A model generated the notes under the pieces. The model was not told the origin of the DNA, did not search any database, and was given only the letters and a program-made list of their open reading frames with translations. Below, one piece after another: positions 240-21,835 of a stretch of DNA of 22,173 nucleotides (position 1 is the first letter of the stretch; each line of letters opens with the position of its first letter). The position numbers and the translations under genes were made by a program. The stretch is from a virus: positions 1-22,173 of IMG/VR virus record IMGVR_UViG_3300044644_001325. One strand, 5' to 3'.

Positions 240-2330
240 ATGAATCAAGCAGAACTTTCGCAACTCTCCGGTGTAATTCGTTCTTCAATGGGCGAATCAG
301 CTGGTCAATTCAGAGAAGCTGCGGAAAGAGGAAATGCTAATCTAGCCAAGATTATGGGAACTATTGCTGCTGCCATTAAGGCGCAGCGACAGGATCTCAA
401 TGATCTTCAAAATGTTCTACAAGAAAACGAGGGCGTATCTGAAAGAAATTCTTCTACACTACAAGCAATTCAATCAGAGCTTCAAGACATAAATTCTGGC
501 ATACATGATATGGCTACTGGCATCAAAAATATGGCCAGAGGAATATCAAACGTTGATAATAGTATCTTTAGATTAAATCAAGACCTACAAAGCTCAATTG
601 GACAAAGTTTATTACCAGGTATTTTAACTGGTCTTAGCGGAACAGCTATGTCCATAGTTAAAGGTATTGGTGCTTTAGCTATGGGCGGATTGGCTTTTGG
701 CGCAGGTAAAACTGCTATGGATTATATGACTGGTGGTGGTGCAGGTGGCGGTGGTGGAGGACTAGGTGCTGCTGGTGGTGTTAAACAGGTAAGCAATCCT
801 GTTATGGCAAAGGACATATACAGCTATCTGACAAAAGAAAAGGGTATTGATCACGAACACGCTGTGGGAATGCTGGCTAATATACAAAACGAATCAAGAT
901 TTAATTCAGGCGCATATAATCGCAACGACGTTAATGGTCCATCAGGTGGTTTGTTCCAACATCATGATAATTTAAGAACTGGTGAACATAGATTCACTGA
1001 TATGACTAGAGCAGCTGGTCCGGACTGGCAGAAAAATTGGAAGGGACAAATTGATTATGCTCTGACTGAACGTGAAATGAAGTCTTATTTAAAAACTCCA
1101 GTTTCTAGCGGCCAAGAAGCGGCTGCTCAATTTGTTTATAAATTTGAAAAACCAAGAGATCAAGCTGGAGAAGCTTCAAGAAGAGCAGGAAACGTTGCCG
1201 CCGTAGAAAAAGCTATAGGTGGCAAAACAGAAACTAATGCGCCAACCAGCAGCGGATCCGCTACTCCTCAATCTTCTCCAATGCAATCTAAGTTTGAACA
1301 ACCACCAGTTTCTTCTGAAAGCGTTTCTAGAGTTGAAAAAATTGGCGGAGAACATGGGCATGGCCCAATAAGTGGTGCGGCTGAACATAGTCATAACGAA
1401 AAAGAAGCTGGTGTCGGTAAAATGTCTCCTCTACCCGGTGGCGATATACTTGCTTTAGGTAAAGCACTACAAGCGCAAGGGATAAGAGTTTCAGAACACC
1501 CAGCATTTGGTGGCGTTCATCCAGAGCAACATCATCCAGGTTCTGCACATAATGACGGAATGGCAATTGATATCAACGCTCCTGGCTCTGTAGTTGAGGC
1601 AAATGATCCTGTTTGGGGCAAGAGATTTGACGAATTAGCAAAACAAATTCAAGCTGCTGGATACACTGTTCTATGGAGAACCAAAGGTCATGACAATCAT
1701 ATCCACGCTCAAATAGGTGGTAAAGGCATCAAAGGCGGTCATTCTGTAATAGGTGGTCAAACAACGCCTGGAGCAGAACCATCTGCAACAACTCCAGGTT
1801 CAGGTTATTCGCCACAACAGACTGCAACTCCAGTTGCAATGACACAGGCAATGCCTGGAACTGCTGCAGGTTTGACCCCAGAGCAAATGACAATGATGAT
1901 GACAGGAATGAATCCTATGGCTGCAGCTGCAGCGTCAGCAATGATGGGTCAATTACAATCAGCTCAAGAAGAAGCTGCAGCGATCGCTCCACAACAACAA
2001 GCAGAACAACCACAATCACAACAGTTATCTAGTACACAAATACTAGAACAATTAAGTAGATCTACAGAAAACGCTCAGGTTCTTAAACAAGCTGCTGTAA
2101 CAAATCAAGTTCAACAAGAAATTGCGCAACAAGAACCAATATCTGAAATACTTGCTTCTATATTTGGTCAACAATCTACTCCATCTTCCACCATTGTTAA
2201 TAACAGTAGTAATATCAGCGCTGGTGGTTACAATGGCACATATGATGTTGGATGGCCAGATTGGGCTGAAATGATTGGTGGTAATCATTGGAAAGAAATG
2301 AAGAATTACAAAAAGAACATGTGGGGTTAA
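240..2330 (+). CDS. Virion-associated peptidoglycan hydrolase: tail lysozyme + M15-type peptidase, 696 aa
   Basis: A likely baseplate or tail-tip enzyme that opens the cell wall during infection. Residues 1-125 are polar and predicted helical or coiled-coil. Residues about 120-165 are hydrophobic and Gly/Ala-rich, followed by a poly-Gly linker (about 165-180). Residues about 187-325 match the phage tail lysozyme pattern, with IYSYLTKEKG.....A.GMLANIQNESRFN placing the likely catalytic Glu at 218. Residues about 395-500 match the M15/VanY-type LD/DD-peptidase fold: SAHNDGMAID gives zinc ligands H437 and D444, and HDNHIH gives H487/H489. The tail (about 510-650) is Gln/Ala/Met-rich low complexity. 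It follows the baseplate-type genes and ends just before a bidirectional terminator. Two different wall-cutting activities in one protein is the notable point. The host target bonds are inferred. Confidence 0.85.
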   Translation: MNQAELSQLSGVIRSSMGESAGQFREAAERGNANLAKIMGTIAAAIKAQRQDLNDLQNVLQENEGVSERNSSTLQAIQSELQDINSGIHDMATGIKNMARGISNVDNSIFRLNQDLQSSIGQSLLPGILTGLSGTAMSIVKGIGALAMGGLAFGAGKTAMDYMTGGGAGGGGGGLGAAGGVKQVSNPVMAKDIYSYLTKEKGIDHEHAVGMLANIQNESRFNSGAYNRNDVNGPSGGLFQHHDNLRTGEHRFTDMTRAAGPDWQKNWKGQIDYALTEREMKSYLKTPVSSGQEAAAQFVYKFEKPRDQAGEASRRAGNVAAVEKAIGGKTETNAPTSSGSATPQSSPMQSKFEQPPVSSESVSRVEKIGGEHGHGPISGAAEHSHNEKEAGVGKMSPLPGGDILALGKALQAQGIRVSEHPAFGGVHPEQHHPGSAHNDGMAIDINAPGSVVEANDPVWGKRFDELAKQIQAAGYTVLWRTKGHDNHIHAQIGGKGIKGGHSVIGGQTTPGAEPSATTPGSGYSPQQTATPVAMTQAMPGTAAGLTPEQMTMMMTGMNPMAAAAASAMMGQLQSAQEEAAAIAPQQQAEQPQSQQLSSTQILEQLSRSTENAQVLKQAAVTNQVQQEIAQQEPISEILASIFGQQSTPSSTIVNNSSNISAGGYNGTYDVGWPDWAEMIGGNHWKEMKNYKKNMWG

Positions 2331-2361: not shown

Positions 2362-3270
2362 TTAGTCATTAGCAAGGTTCTTGAAAAACTTTAACGACTC
2401 ATCATCATCTTCTTCCAATTCATCGCTAGAATAAATTGGCGTACTAGATGCCTTAAACTTAGGAGCAGCTTCTTCTTCCTGCCAAGGAACTTCAGTATTC
2501 TCAGCTGCCTTACGCTTTGCAGGAGCAGAATCTTCAGCCAGAACCTTTGACAAACGAGACTGTAGCTCTTCATAAGACTTGAAGTTCTTAGGATCTAGGA
2601 ATTCCTGAAGAGAATGTTCGCTCTTCCAAACCTTTTCTAGCTCTTCGTCATCCTTAAGAAGAGGACCTGGCTTATCAAACTCTGACTTATCATAATTACG
2701 ATAACCCTCTAGATTACGAATCTTCAGCTTGAAATTAGCGCCAGCCCACATATCGAATGGATTGATTGCTTCTTCGTCAGCAAACTGTGGCTCCATTGCT
2801 TCCTTCAGCTTATCAAAAATCTTCTTTCCATACTTATAAAGGAAAACCTTACCTTCATTTGCTGGATTACCCTGGTCGCTAACAACGTAGACATTGCTGA
2901 TAAAATGAAGGCGACGCTTCTGCTTACGAGCAATTTCCTTATTAGCTTCGATTCCAGAGTTCCATAGCTTAGAATTATATTCAGAAACTGGATCGTTCTT
3001 ACCAAGAGTTGTTAGTGAATTTTCAATATACCATCCGCCTGGACCCTGGAAACCATGATCAAACAAACGTACGAAAGGAACATCTTCGTTGTTTGGCGGG
3101 GGAAGAAAACGAATTACAGCGTAACCATTTCCAGCCTTATCGACTGTGGGCGACCAGAAACGATCATCAGATCCTTTACCTTCGCCGCCTGAAATCTTGT
3201 TTAGTTCTGCTGTTAGTGTTTCGAGAGACTTCTTACCAGAAGCTGCTTTGAGGGACTTAAAATCTACCAT
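2362..3270 (-). CDS. 32: Single-stranded DNA-binding protein, T4 gp32-like, 302 aa
   Basis: Cooperative ssDNA-binding protein for replication, recombination and repair. The length matches T4 gp32 (301 aa). The N-terminus has a basic GKKS segment before TAELNKI, like the T4 LAST/cooperativity motif. The core (WSPTVDKAGNGYAVIRFLPPP; FDHGFQGPGGWYIENSLTT; KYGKKIFDKL; GYRNYDKSEF) is typical of gp32 from cyanobacterial and other non-enteric T4-like phages. The C-terminus is strongly acidic (DELEEDDDES), as expected for the partner-binding tail. The protein contains no cysteine, so the T4 zinc site (His plus three Cys) is absent. The start has GGAG 8 nt upstream. It is the last gene before the 2335-2357 terminator and follows gp59, as in T4. 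Confidence 0.95.
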   Translation of the reverse strand: MVDFKSLKAASGKKSLETLTAELNKISGGEGKGSDDRFWSPTVDKAGNGYAVIRFLPPPNNEDVPFVRLFDHGFQGPGGWYIENSLTTLGKNDPVSEYNSKLWNSGIEANKEIARKQKRRLHFISNVYVVSDQGNPANEGKVFLYKYGKKIFDKLKEAMEPQFADEEAINPFDMWAGANFKLKIRNLEGYRNYDKSEFDKPGPLLKDDEELEKVWKSEHSLQEFLDPKNFKSYEELQSRLSKVLAEDSAPAKRKAAENTEVPWQEEEAAPKFKASSTPIYSSDELEEDDDESLKFFKNLAND

Positions 3271-3331: not shown

Positions 3332-3907
3332 TTATTTAGTATACTCCATATCATTCATCATGTCAAGCATTGTCTGCTTAACTTTCTCATAATCAAATTT
3401 GATGAATGGAGTATATTTTACAACCCTCAATCGGATATCTTCCCATATTGGGTCATATTCAAGTTTAGAGTCCCAATAAATGATCGCCTTTGTCATTTTA
3501 ACAAAGATACAAAAAGACTCTAAACTGATCTGGTTACCAAGATATAATCGAAGGGCGGCTGGATGTTGCTGCCCTCCTGGTTCTTCTAATATTTTCTTGA
3601 AATCGTTTTTAAAATTATATGTTAGAGATTGGTTTCGCTTTTTCCAATTTTGGTATGTGGACTGCGCTACTTCAGAATAAGCTAGATCACGTATCCACAA
3701 CTTCGGATTATTACTAAGATTAGCTATAAGAAACTCATGATAATTCTCAATCTTTGAAAGTTTCTCAAAGAAAATCTTGTCTTTTCGCTTCTCAAATGAA
3801 GCTGGTTTTAATCCTGTCTTCCCATTGTATTTGATGTAGTCGTAGTCTTTTTTTGAGAAGTGGTTTTTGAGGGCGATGTACTCTTTATATGCTTCGAACG
3901 CCGACAT
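3332..3907 (-). CDS. 59: Replicative helicase loader, T4 gp59-like, 191 aa
   Basis: Loads the gp41-type helicase onto gp32-coated ssDNA at forks and recombination intermediates. T4 gp59 is 217 aa. Shared features include the N-terminal segment KKDYDYIKYNGK (T4: KYDVIKYNW), the following KRKDKIFFEKLSK (T4: KRRDKYFFQKLSE) and NLSNNPKLWIRDL (T4: NLVANQDAWIGDI). Position directly upstream of gp32 also matches T4. The first 33 codons or so overlap the 3' end of the SprT-like gene in another frame, so the two are probably translationally coupled. Identification rests on pattern plus synteny. Confidence 0.88.
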   Translation of the reverse strand: MSAFEAYKEYIALKNHFSKKDYDYIKYNGKTGLKPASFEKRKDKIFFEKLSKIENYHEFLIANLSNNPKLWIRDLAYSEVAQSTYQNWKKRNQSLTYNFKNDFKKILEEPGGQQHPAALRLYLGNQISLESFCIFVKMTKAIIYWDSKLEYDPIWEDIRLRVVKYTPFIKFDYEKVKQTMLDMMNDMEYTK

Positions 3908-4405: not shown

Positions 4406-4413
4406 TATTTATA
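4406..4413 (-). promoter_or_regulatory. T4-type late promoter box (TATAAATA) upstream of SprT-like gene
   Basis: Minus-strand TATAAATA is identical to the T4 late promoter -10 consensus recognised by RNA polymerase with gp55/gp33 and the sliding clamp. It lies at the 3' end of gp33, and transcription from it would start about 20 nt before the SprT-like ATG. Confidence 0.55.
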
Positions 4414-4627
4414 TGGGAAGTCTAGCTCCACGTTTTAAAATGTTTAGATTTTCTGCCTCGACCTGAATTTTAGACTTCATCACTGGGTCTTTTCTGATCC
4501 AGTATGCAGCAGTTTCTACCTCTAGATTATTTTTCTGACACCAAAAAACAACAGCATCAATATATTCTATATTTTTGTCTCTGCAGAGTTTTTCGACTTC
4601 GTCGACGAAGCCTGAATTTTTAAGCAT
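4409..4627 (-). CDS. 33: Late-promoter transcription coactivator, T4 gp33-like, 72 aa
   Basis: gp33 bridges RNA polymerase and the sliding clamp to activate late transcription. T4 gp33 is 112 aa; this is a short form like those of cyanophages. Residues FVDEVEKLCRDKNIEYIDAV align with T4 FIIEKMVEEFGMSYLEAT, and KIQVEAENLNILK with KIQSEAIDENLLR. The C-terminus (ARLPI) is hydrophobic and could be the clamp-binding end, as in T4 (DFLL). The gene order 33-59-32 is as in T4, apart from the inserted SprT-like gene. The ATG is preceded by AAGAAGAAG and lies inside the previous gene (61-nt overlap). Confidence 0.82.
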   Translation of the reverse strand: MLKNSGFVDEVEKLCRDKNIEYIDAVVFWCQKNNLEVETAAYWIRKDPVMKSKIQVEAENLNILKRGARLPI

Positions 4628-5142: not shown

Positions 5143-5219
5143 TGGCGACTCCGGTACGATTCGAACGTACGACCCACAGATTAGAAGTCTGTTGCTCTAT
5201 CCTGCTGAGCTACGGAGCC
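5143..5219 (-). tRNA. tRNA-Arg (anticodon UCU)
   Basis: A 77-nt cloverleaf with encoded CCA. The acceptor stem is GGCTCCG/CGGAGTC with one G-U pair. The anticodon stem-loop CAGA-CTTCTAA-TCTG gives anticodon TCT (reads AGA/AGG). The T arm is GTACG-TTCGAAT-CGTAC. AGA is common in this phage's genes and usually rare in GC-rich alphaproteobacteria, so the tRNA probably supports phage codon use. Confidence 0.97.
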
Positions 5220-5228
5220 ATTATTAGT

Positions 5229-5257
5229 ATTATACTATGGTACAATCAGAAAGGCAA
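5229..5257 (-). promoter_or_regulatory. Sigma70-like promoter for tRNA-Arg
   Basis: TTGCCT (5252-5257), a 17-bp spacer and TATAAT (5229-5234). The start point would fall within a few bases of the tRNA 5' end. The -35 box lies in the 3' arm of the hairpin that ends the tmRNA coding piece. Confidence 0.8.
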
Positions 5258-5299
5258 GTCTTTTCTGTTTCGAGGTAAGACTTGCAGAACCCAATGAAC

Positions 5300-5341
5300 T
5301 TACGCTGCTAGAGCGAAGTCAAATGGAGCATTATCGTTTGC
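5300..5341 (-). CDS. tmRNA tag peptide ANDNAPFDFALAA
   Basis: The resume codon is GCA at 5341-5339, followed by AAC GAT AAT and ending GCA GCG TAA. Translation begins on a stalled ribosome and not at a start codon. The AND(N) beginning and (A)LAA end match alphaproteobacterial tags and ClpXP recognition. Confidence 0.93.
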   Translation of the reverse strand, partial: ANDNAPFDFALAA

Positions 5342-5405
5342 GCCATTTATAATTACCTTGATCTCAAAACGACCTTACTGTATCCCGTCGAACCTGTGCG
5401 CCCCC

Positions 5406-5498
5406 ATCATAGATACACTCAAATACCATTATTCGCTTCACAGTATCTTCCCACAGGGGATATTAATCAACCTGGCGAGTCGGGAAGGAGTGTATCTA
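5406..5498 (-). other. Intervening segment of the permuted tmRNA, removed on maturation
   Basis: It is bounded by a perfect 11-bp inverted repeat (TAGATACACTC at 5498-5488 and GAGTGTATCTA at 5420-5410). This extends the acceptor helix across the CCA end and the coding-piece 5' end. Inside is a further 6-bp pairing (CTTCCC/GGGAAG). Host RNase P and 3' processing enzymes would be expected to cut it out, as in bacterial permuted tmRNAs. Confidence 0.85.
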
Positions 5499-5570
5499 TG
5501 GTGGAGGCGGTGGGAATCGCACCCACGTCCAAGAAACCTATATTTCGTCTCTCAACGACCTCGGCAATTC

Positions 5571-5578
5571 TATTTATA
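5571..5578 (-). promoter_or_regulatory. T4-type late promoter box (TATAAATA) in front of the tmRNA
   Basis: Minus-strand TATAAATA overlaps the stop codon of the 94-aa gene and would start transcription about 6 nt downstream, right at the 5' end of the tmRNA acceptor piece. This implies late expression driven by gp33/gp55-modified polymerase. Confidence 0.6.
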
Positions 5579-5858
5579 ATGGGGCGAAGGTTTTATTGTG
5601 ACCGTCGATTGATAATGTGACTGCTCCAACGTAGCCACATTCTTTTGTTCCTGGAATGGAGAACTCGCCGCTACCATGCCAGTGAAATGTAGGAGCGTTA
5701 CAATCGCCGCCGTTAATAGAAACCAACGAAACATCCATCACCTTCTTTGCTTTACAGTGGATGATATGGCTATCGCTAGCCTTCTTATCGCATGATATAT
5801 CTTCCGATGCCATTGCTGTTCCACTCAATAATGAACTAATTATCAAGAGTGTTTTCAA
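5574..5858 (-). CDS. Secreted small protein, 94 aa (TTG start)
   Basis: The favoured start is TTG 5858, with GAGG 5 nt upstream. It gives the signal peptide MKTLLIISSLLSGTAMA with a cleavage site before SEDI. A GTG at 5894 in the same frame would add 12 residues. The mature part has four cysteines (DISCDKK, IIHCKAKK, GGDCNAP, TKECGYVG), suggesting disulfides in the periplasm. No family is recognised. It is the last gene of the secreted cluster and its stop overlaps the tmRNA late promoter. Confidence 0.75.
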   Translation of the reverse strand: MKTLLIISSLLSGTAMASEDISCDKKASDSHIIHCKAKKVMDVSLVSINGGDCNAPTFHWHGSGEFSIPGTKECGYVGAVTLSIDGHNKTFAPL

Positions 5859-5884
5859 AATCCTCAATTTGAGGATGCGGTGGT

Positions 5885-6007
5885 TCACTGGCACGGTCTA
5901 TTACTACTATCCCGTACAGCGCACTTGACGACTGTTCCGAGTGCTGAACAGCCAACCAAACTAAGAAAGGATAACCCCGCTAGAATTACTAGTAGATACT
6001 TCTTCAT
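5885..6007 (-). CDS. Small lipoprotein, 40 aa
   Basis: ATG 6007 has CGGAG upstream (GGAGAATAAAAATG). A basic start (MKKY), a hydrophobic stretch and lipobox LVGC place the lipidated Cys at residue 20, leaving a 21-residue mature peptide with two further Cys. The size resembles o-spanins or entericidin-like lipoproteins, but it is not proline-rich like typical Rz1. Its first 47 nt overlap the end of the 96-aa gene in another frame. Confidence 0.75.
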   Translation of the reverse strand: MKKYLLVILAGLSFLSLVGCSALGTVVKCAVRDSSNRPCQ

Positions 6008-6251
6008 TTTTATTCTCCGGATTAAATTCATGCTTATCAGTCTCATATAGAGCCACAGAAAACCATTCGTTAGAACCTTGGCGCTGATATTGAAAATCCT
6101 GCATAGGAACCATTACCATCTGTTTAGTTTCTGGATGAACCATCATCTTAGGAAACATTACCATGCGAATGTCGCATATTGGTTCTATCCTCTCGACCTT
6201 CCCGTGTGTAGGAAAATTAGCAACGCCACCATCTGGTCCAAGAATACTCAT
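5961..6251 (-). CDS. Hypothetical 96-aa protein in the secreted-protein cluster
   Basis: It begins with an ATGA overlap with the 116-aa gene. No signal peptide is seen from this start. The middle is Met/Pro-rich (RMVMFPKMMVHPETKQMVMVPM), followed by WFSVALYETDKHEF. Unrecognised. The codons and overlaps on both ends support a real gene. Confidence 0.72.
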   Translation of the reverse strand: MSILGPDGGVANFPTHGKVERIEPICDIRMVMFPKMMVHPETKQMVMVPMQDFQYQRQGSNEWFSVALYETDKHEFNPENKNEEVSTSNSSGVILS

Positions 6252-6598
6252 GTCTTTTGTCCTCTCACCTTTTCCAGAAGCTGATAAAGATATTCAATAG
6301 CAGATTCATTGAATGTTACGTTTTTTAGAATTGTTGTAACACAATATTGCTTAGCAGCAAAAGCATTACCATCAGAAGCCTTATCATATTCTACAACGTA
6401 GATATATCTTTCTTTAGACATCATGATCTCAGAAACTCGGTTATCATCCTTAAAACCATTATAAATGGTAGAAAGATTCTTATCGTCAATCATCTTCATG
6501 AAAACTTTATTTTCATAACACTTCAATTCCGACTCTGCTGCTAGAGCAGAGCCAGATAACATTGAAGCAATCACCACGCTATACATGATATTTTTCAT
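6248..6598 (-). CDS. Secreted protein, 116 aa
   Basis: An N-terminal signal peptide ends about ALA at residue 20 (SGSALA before AESEL). The mature protein is about 96 aa with two Cys (ELKCYEN, KQYCVTT), probably a periplasmic disulfide. No known family is recognised. The start is 2 nt after the 64-aa gene's stop. Export of phage proteins in this cluster suggests a role in the envelope or lysis. Confidence 0.78.
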   Translation of the reverse strand: MKNIMYSVVIASMLSGSALAAESELKCYENKVFMKMIDDKNLSTIYNGFKDDNRVSEIMMSKERYIYVVEYDKASDGNAFAAKQYCVTTILKNVTFNESAIEYLYQLLEKVRGQKT

Positions 6599-6600
6599 AA

Positions 6601-6795
6601 TTACTTCCTTGTGGTTACTTCCTGAACCTTCTGAGCGATCTTCTGTTCGTCGGTCTTACCAAAATTGGTAGGACGCTTCGGAGGCAGAGGAGTTTCTTCT
6701 ACATACTTTGAAACTGGAGGCGCAATAACGTCGCCAGCAAATGCACTACCACCCATAAGCATGGCAGCAACGGTCGATAAGATAATCTTATTCAT
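6601..6795 (-). CDS. Secreted proline-rich peptide, 64 aa
   Basis: Signal peptide MNKIILSTVAAMLMGGSAFA is followed by GDVIAPPVSKY. The mature part is short, proline-rich (EETPLPPKRPTNF) and basic at the end. AAAGGA lies upstream of the ATG. Unrecognised. It is first of the secreted run. Confidence 0.78.
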   Translation of the reverse strand: MNKIILSTVAAMLMGGSAFAGDVIAPPVSKYVEETPLPPKRPTNFGKTDEQKIAQKVQEVTTRK

Positions 6796-20983: not shown

Positions 20984-21203
20984 CATCCCCTCCCATATAT
21001 TTGTCCCACTCTTCTGGCGTAATACCAGTTCTAATAAACTCTCTGGCATCGTCAGACAACTCCGGGAATGCTTCCTGTATTAGTTTATCCCCACGACGCC
21101 AAGATAATAGGCGTAGTTCGAACTCGTCCTGTTCATAGATAGAAAACTCCATCGTGTGTAGCTTATCTGTGAATGGTGACGTCTTAGTAATTCTAGCTGG
21201 CAT
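20976..21203 (-). CDS. Conserved small phage protein, 75 aa
   Basis: RITKTSPFTDKLHTMEFSI..., WRRGDKLIQEAFPELSDDAREFIRTGITPEEWDKY matches a very widespread short phage protein ('TSPFTG..NTM......W..G..IQ.AFP.L...REFL.TG.TPEEWD'). Its role is unknown. TAATG overlap with the upstream oxygenase gene. Confidence 0.85.
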   Translation of the reverse strand: MPARITKTSPFTDKLHTMEFSIYEQDEFELRLLSWRRGDKLIQEAFPELSDDAREFIRTGITPEEWDKYMGGDDD

Positions 21204-21835
21204 TATTTAAACGATGGCCCTGTTGCCCAAATCACCAAAGAGTTTCGTTTACCTTTGGTAACTGGTAATACTTCATGAATGGTAAACGAAGGAAAGAATA
21301 ACATTGATCCTTGTTGCATTTCAAGAGTAATTCCTCGAGCGTGTGGGAATGATATCATCCCTCCCTCAAAATCTTTGGGGTCTGACAATAAAATTGAAAT
21401 TGATAATTTTCTTGATATTGAACCGTAATCTCTATCCGAGTGGGCAGAATAATGTTGGCTGGGCGCTTCATACTCTAGAAATTGCATAGGCTCTACAACG
21501 CCAGTTAGATCCATCTTAAAATGTCTCTCATTGGCCTGCTGAATTAGAGCATGAACCTTATGCCTTACAAACAAAAGATCGTTATGCTCTTGTTCTTCAG
21601 TAATACAATATGCCTTACAATCTCTTACTTCTTTGTCGGTAATACCCTCGCCGAGTAAACCGTCTTGTGGCTTTCCGTGTTCGTTGTAAAAATTAATAAT
21701 GTCTTTACATTCTTCTTTAGAAAAGACATCTTTATAGAAAGCAAACTCTTCAATATTATCTCTATATATTCCTAGCACATCAAAGATACTAGGTATCTTG
21801 ATTTCTTTTTCTTCATTACCAGTATCAATAATCAT
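21203..21835 (-). CDS. 2-oxoglutarate/Fe(II)-dependent dioxygenase, 210 aa
   Basis: Prolyl-4-hydroxylase/PKHD-like double-stranded beta-helix enzyme. The iron ligands are H132 and D134 (AHSDRDYG) and H187 (FTIHEVLPV), and the 2OG-binding basic residue is R197 (GKRNSLVIWA). LSISILLSDPKDFEGG is the typical mid-domain strand pair. Such enzymes hydroxylate proteins or modify nucleic acid bases; the target here is unknown. The first 35 residues are an extra N-terminal segment. ATG 21835 has GGAG 7 nt upstream. Confidence 0.88.
   Translation of the reverse strand: MIIDTGNEEKEIKIPSIFDVLGIYRDNIEEFAFYKDVFSKEECKDIINFYNEHGKPQDGLLGEGITDKEVRDCKAYCITEEQEHNDLLFVRHKVHALIQQANERHFKMDLTGVVEPMQFLEYEAPSQHYSAHSDRDYGSISRKLSISILLSDPKDFEGGMISFPHARGITLEMQQGSMLFFPSFTIHEVLPVTKGKRNSLVIWATGPSFK

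Follow-up and report, generated by a model that had tools for sequence, protein, structure and literature searches.

A circularly permuted two-piece tmRNA gene at a recurrent position upstream of gp32 in T4-like phages

Results

Identification and structure of the tmRNA gene

Sequence analysis confirmed a real permuted tmRNA gene on the minus strand, at 5566-5246, of the window (the whole stretch of viral DNA analysed, 22,173 nucleotides of IMG/VR record IMGVR_UViG_3300044644_001325). tmRNA releases stalled ribosomes and tags the unfinished proteins on them; this one is encoded in two pieces, in the order acceptor piece, intervening segment and coding piece. Covariance-model searches of the window scored above the gathering cut-off with both RF04321 (tmRNA_permuted; 87.4 bits, E 7.5e-16, cut-off 47) and RF01849 (alpha_tmRNA; 58.3 bits, E 5.8e-14, cut-off 50), and ARAGORN independently called a permuted tmRNA at c[5209,5591]. 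The original prediction, a circularly permuted two-piece tmRNA to be checked with covariance models, was borne out by these three calls, and all of the elements it described lie on the minus strand. Among the Rfam lineage models RF01849 was the best at this locus (the remaining clan models gave lower scores or were not reported), which supports the alpha-type identity. The same metagenome yielded another contig with an identical tmRNA locus (100% over 13,812 bp).

The acceptor piece (about 5566-5499, minus strand, with a predicted 5' end) was delimited by the RF04321 and RF01849 alignments and by cofolding. It comprises the 5' part of P2, the T-arm (5526-5510), the acceptor 3' strand CGCCTCC (5509-5503), A73 (5502) and an encoded CCA (5501-5499). 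The 93-nt intervening segment (5498-5406, minus strand, from sequence and fold) is expected to be excised. The coding piece (5405-5246, minus strand, with a predicted 3' end; RF04321/RF01849, ARAGORN and cofold) contains the acceptor 5' strand GGGGGCG (5405-5399), the D-loop-like AGGTTCGACGGGAT, the tag reading frame and a 3' hairpin. The two acceptor strands form the 7-bp stem foreseen between the pieces, and the motif considered diagnostic is present in the coding piece as GGTTCGACGGGAT (5394-5382, minus strand). The acceptor domain resembles that of tRNA-Ala, with a G3.U70 wobble in the 7-bp stem, A73 and the encoded CCA; G3.U70 and A73 are features used by alanyl-tRNA synthetase. The 3' hairpin GCAAGTCTT/AAGACTTGC (5285-5277 with 5262-5254, within 5247-5285, minus strand) was seen in the fold, and a putative pseudoknot between CAGAA (5268-5264) and TTCTG (5251-5247) can be read from the same strand. 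The coding piece is short ahead of the tag, and pseudoknot 1 is not clear there.

In the precursor fold, a 12-bp inverted repeat (5499-5488 with 5420-5409) prolongs the acceptor helix; the z-score of the fold was -4.25 and none of the shuffles was as good. With the repeat stacked on past the acceptor stem, the precursor is able to form a single long hairpin, which would be the shape expected for RNase P cleavage at 5405 and trimming to the CCA. When the isolated pieces were cofolded they paired through the acceptor stem and P2, a helix that is weak in the window copy. Their interaction energy was -13.0, compared with a mean of -6.7 for shuffled partners (sd 2.6, best -15.7). Taken alone, this cofold energy is only modestly better than that of the shuffles and constitutes weak evidence.

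Tag peptide

The resume codon GCA (5341-5339) and the tag, both anticipated from the sequence, are present. ARAGORN and the coordinates give a reading frame GCA..TAA at 5341-5300 (minus strand), in which codons 5341-5303 encode ANDNAPFDFALAA and 5302-5300 is the TAA stop; the tag is in frame, starts with ANDN and ends with ALAA. ARAGORN placed an extra Gly before the tag, which was rejected as an artefact of the program's frame start because the relatives begin at GCA or GCT. The tag of relatives L003 and L004 reads ANDNYAPFDFALAA, from which ANDNAPFDFALAA differs by an in-frame codon loss. Across the syntenic set, almost all of the tags start with AN[DNE] and all of them end with -[LIM]AA. 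The exact tag had one match among viral contigs, the contig identical to the window, and no match in the 84,980 GTDB species genomes searched; nor did those genomes contain a looser AND-x-APx[DE][FY]A-type pattern that accommodates the L003 and L004 tags. Within this search the tag is consequently phage-type, although ANDN is a usual start and ALAA a usual end.

Carrier phage and gene neighbourhood

The tmRNA gene is followed directly by a tRNA-Arg(TCT) gene (5143-5219; ARAGORN, RF00005 66.6 bits). Beyond it lie genes for a gp33-like late transcription coactivator (4409-4627; PHROG_254, E 6.5e-14), a gp59-like helicase loader (3332-3907; PHROG_269, E 1.4e-49) and a gp32-like ssDNA-binding protein (2362-3270; PHROG_224, E 4e-114), and all four genes share the minus strand with the tmRNA. 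The identical contig (L083, 58.5 kb) continues past the 13,812-base shared stretch into T4-type tail tube and baseplate genes. Given these neighbours and the tail genes, the initial description of the carrier as a T4-like phage was right. A megablast comparison of the whole window with named phages gave no match. Immediately upstream of the tmRNA, the window has a series of small ORFs (5574-6795, minus strand; 64, 116 and 106 aa) whose N-termini resemble signal peptides and which match nothing in PHROGs. Elsewhere it carries an auxiliary 2OG-Fe(II) oxygenase gene (21203-21835, minus strand; PF13640, PHROG_61) and a large ORF with a Phage_lysozyme2 domain (240-2330, plus strand; PF18013), a tail lysozyme candidate.

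Just upstream of the tmRNA, a T4-late-type promoter-like TATAAATA (5571-5578, minus strand) shares bases with the stop codon of the preceding ORF. This motif occurs at 3 sites in the window against 2.1 expected, which is not above chance, and its weight as evidence comes solely from its recurring position in relatives. Measured upstream from the CCA, NATAAATA recurred at a fixed distance in 15 of 28 copies, and a sigma70-type TTGAC-N15..19-TAnnnT, likewise at a fixed distance, in 10 of 28, compared with about 1% at random places in each case. The window copy has NATAAATA and lacks the sigma70-type promoter; in several relatives the motif stretch also fits a sigma70 promoter. These arrangements hint at late transcription of the window copy and early transcription of others, such as that of Melnitz.

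Conservation in related phages

Relatives were defined as the best 80 gp32 matches in IMG/VR, and many of their records were searched with RF04321. Of the first 50 records searched in IMG/VR, which were 49 gp32 relatives plus L083, 24 scored above the cut-off of the model, and most of the others were short fragments. Where a gp32-relative locus extended at least about 6.5 kb upstream of gp32, the model search found a tmRNA in 18 of 19 cases (the exception is L012). All 27 ARAGORN calls were on the same strand as gp32 and upstream of it, 1.3-9.7 kb away. The named relatives Mosig and HTVC008M matched RF04321, while cyanophages S-ShM2 and S-CREM1 and phages C48C1, phiM12 and AG-345-L05 gave no match to this model.

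The acceptor stem was compared across 29 distinct IMG/VR and phage tmRNAs. G1-C, G2-C and G3.U70 were invariant, and pairs 4-6 showed two-sided GC/CG/AT/TA swaps. Pairing in the stem stood at 97.5%, and none of 2000 shuffles exceeded 90.1%; three of the 29 rows were incompletely paired, apparently from an anchor rule that set them off register. Between related pairs the intervening segment was 6-57% identical, and unalignable or nearly so, whereas identity in the acceptor part and the 5' coding part was 60-99%; L101 and L103 are too alike to be informative in this comparison. Covariation in the acceptor stem, together with tags that keep their frame and end, indicates that the RNA is under selection.

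The slot upstream of gp32 is occupied by either of two RNA types, as assigned with Rfam: beta in L206, L207, L208, L210, L213, L236, L254 and L255, and alpha in L003, L004, L008, L010, L211 and L256. Mapping of the alpha/beta label on the gp32 tree gave 6 changes, at least 2 of them forced by well supported branches, in a tree of one gene with typing from model scores. Capture from a host, as originally suggested, is plausible as an origin, but the slot is common to deeply diverged phages, so any capture is old and was then probably followed by type switches.

In L005 (IMGVR_UViG_3300020548_000018, 5927-6619), an HNH endonuclease-like ORF (154 aa) was observed within the intervening segment of the permuted tmRNA, and such an ORF lies between the acceptor and coding pieces in L261, L263, L264, L265, L268 and L269 as well. 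The ORF is identical in the intervening segments of six contigs, with relatives at 66% (L268) and 43% (L269); L266 is cut and retains only the coding side, and L267 has a 70% relative just upstream of its permuted tmRNA. The Pfam HNH score (21.0) is just under the cut-off (21.4). More distant relatives of the ORF have no tmRNA around them, and the papers searched gave no relevant account of an HNH-like gene in a tmRNA intervening segment. It looks like a mobile HNH-like gene that uses the discarded segment as a safe place.

Comparison with known tmRNAs

The window gene shares with the alphaproteobacterial two-piece tmRNA (RF01849, e.g. Caulobacter) its gene order, G3.U70 acceptor stem, encoded CCA and ANDN tag start, the bacterial side of this likeness being partly established knowledge. 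It differs in being phage-borne, in the short segment before the tag and in its weak P2, and its exact tag is absent from the GTDB genomes searched. The mycobacteriophage tmRNAs compared here are one-piece, whereas the window gene is permuted. Phage-carried tmRNAs are likewise found in mycobacteriophages Bxz1, Wildcat and DS6A and in Bacillus phage G (PMC4131195); the DS6A tmRNA consists of the tRNA-like domain only, while the window has a permuted gene with a full tag.

The novelty implied by the original prediction did not hold, since two-piece ssrA genes in T4-like phages are published and are common at the same genome position in relatives. The two-piece ssrA of the T4-like marine phage Melnitz, which has close relatives in SAR11 phages, was published in 2022; of 133 unique phage tmRNA structures that study counted 53 as suggested two-piece forms, and 17 of the 47 contigs that clustered with Melnitz carried a permuted tmRNA (PMC9004378). 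The 2025 tmRNA database holds 79 phage sequences (PMC11915505), and the Mosig record carries an SsrA annotation. Methylophilales phage Melnitz and Pelagibacter phage Mosig (MZ577097, MT647606; PMC9004378) resemble the window in having a permuted alpha-type tmRNA in a T4-like myophage, placed upstream of gp33, gp59 and gp32, and a reported tRNA-Arg(TCT). The Melnitz tag, ANDNYVPVDYALAA, is different from ANDNAPFDFALAA. Melnitz also has a glutamine riboswitch directly after the tmRNA (RF01739, 52.8 bits, L234 1886-1934), whereas the Rfam search found none near the window tmRNA at E<=1. Given these precedents and the phage entries of the tmRNA database, the kind is already known, and the window gene is one more phage-borne two-piece tmRNA.

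Discussion

The window locus probably encodes a working two-piece tmRNA of the alphaproteobacterial type. We infer from the sequence a role in ribosome rescue with delivery of tagged products to ClpXP. One precursor would be transcribed during infection; host RNase P together with 3' nucleases would then process its hairpin into two RNAs that stay joined through the acceptor stem and P2. Host alanyl-tRNA synthetase would charge this RNA, and host SmpB would bring it to ribosomes stalled on broken mRNA, where ANDNAPFDFALAA would be added to the nascent product, directing it to ClpXP or other host proteases. The phage would probably benefit because ribosome turnover is maintained while nucleases break mRNA, independently of the host ssrA supply. 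A search for SmpB (PF01668) found none in 34 phage records, mostly fragments but including the complete Mosig, Melnitz and phiM12 records; in the control search it was found in 10 of 14 bacteria. The phage RNA therefore presumably relies on host SmpB.

A tmRNA picks stalled ribosomes, not particular proteins. We therefore regard it as unlikely that the main role is to send chosen host or phage proteins to ClpXP, for takeover or amino-acid recycling, in place of general ribosome rescue, although the ALAA-type tag end would suit such a role and it has been proposed for Melnitz (PMC9004378). It is very unlikely that the RNA serves as a decoy, titrating SmpB of the host or blocking its trans-translation, as has been suggested for the DS6A tmRNA with its tRNA-like domain only. 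The lack of an SmpB gene in the 34 phage records fits a decoy, and DS6A is a precedent for inhibition by the tRNA-like domain only (PMC4131195; PMC11915505); however, a decoy would have no need of the coding piece, and the tag frame is intact in the window and its relatives, where AN[DN] at the start and -[LIM]AA at the end are conserved and the codon loss between ANDNAPFDFALAA and ANDNYAPFDFALAA is in frame. This conservation of the tag argues against a mere decoy. That the gene is a functionless passenger acquired by imprecise prophage excision is very unlikely and already disfavoured by conservation: ssrA genes are often integration sites and the Melnitz authors raised such an origin (PMC9004378), but the gene is whole, occupies one fixed place across diverged T4-like phages, has covarying stems and promoter-like motifs ahead of it, and those window ORFs that were searched yielded no integrase.

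Ribosome rescue remains the preferred function, and a broader reading built on it is tentative. In this phage group the slot beside gp33-gp59-gp32 may be an almost constant component of the cluster for replication and late transcription, a slot in which alpha and beta permuted tmRNAs have been swapped over time; the RNA, with a phage-specific tag and host SmpB, might take over ribosome rescue during infection, and its intervening segment might, in relatives, be where HNH mobile genes land.

The relatives show that the tmRNA keeps its position across a broad group of T4-like phages. This makes the question of why a phage carries its own ribosome-rescue RNA testable in cultured Mosig, HTVC008M, Melnitz and Stenotrophomonas phage DLP_6. 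The Pelagibacter phage HTVC008M has a permuted alpha-type tmRNA at KC465899.1 145161-145370 (L253, 90.6 bits), and Stenotrophomonas phage vB_SmaS-DLP_6 an unannotated permuted beta-type tmRNA at KU682439.2 102838-103059 (L252, 136.8 bits), beside a tRNA cluster.
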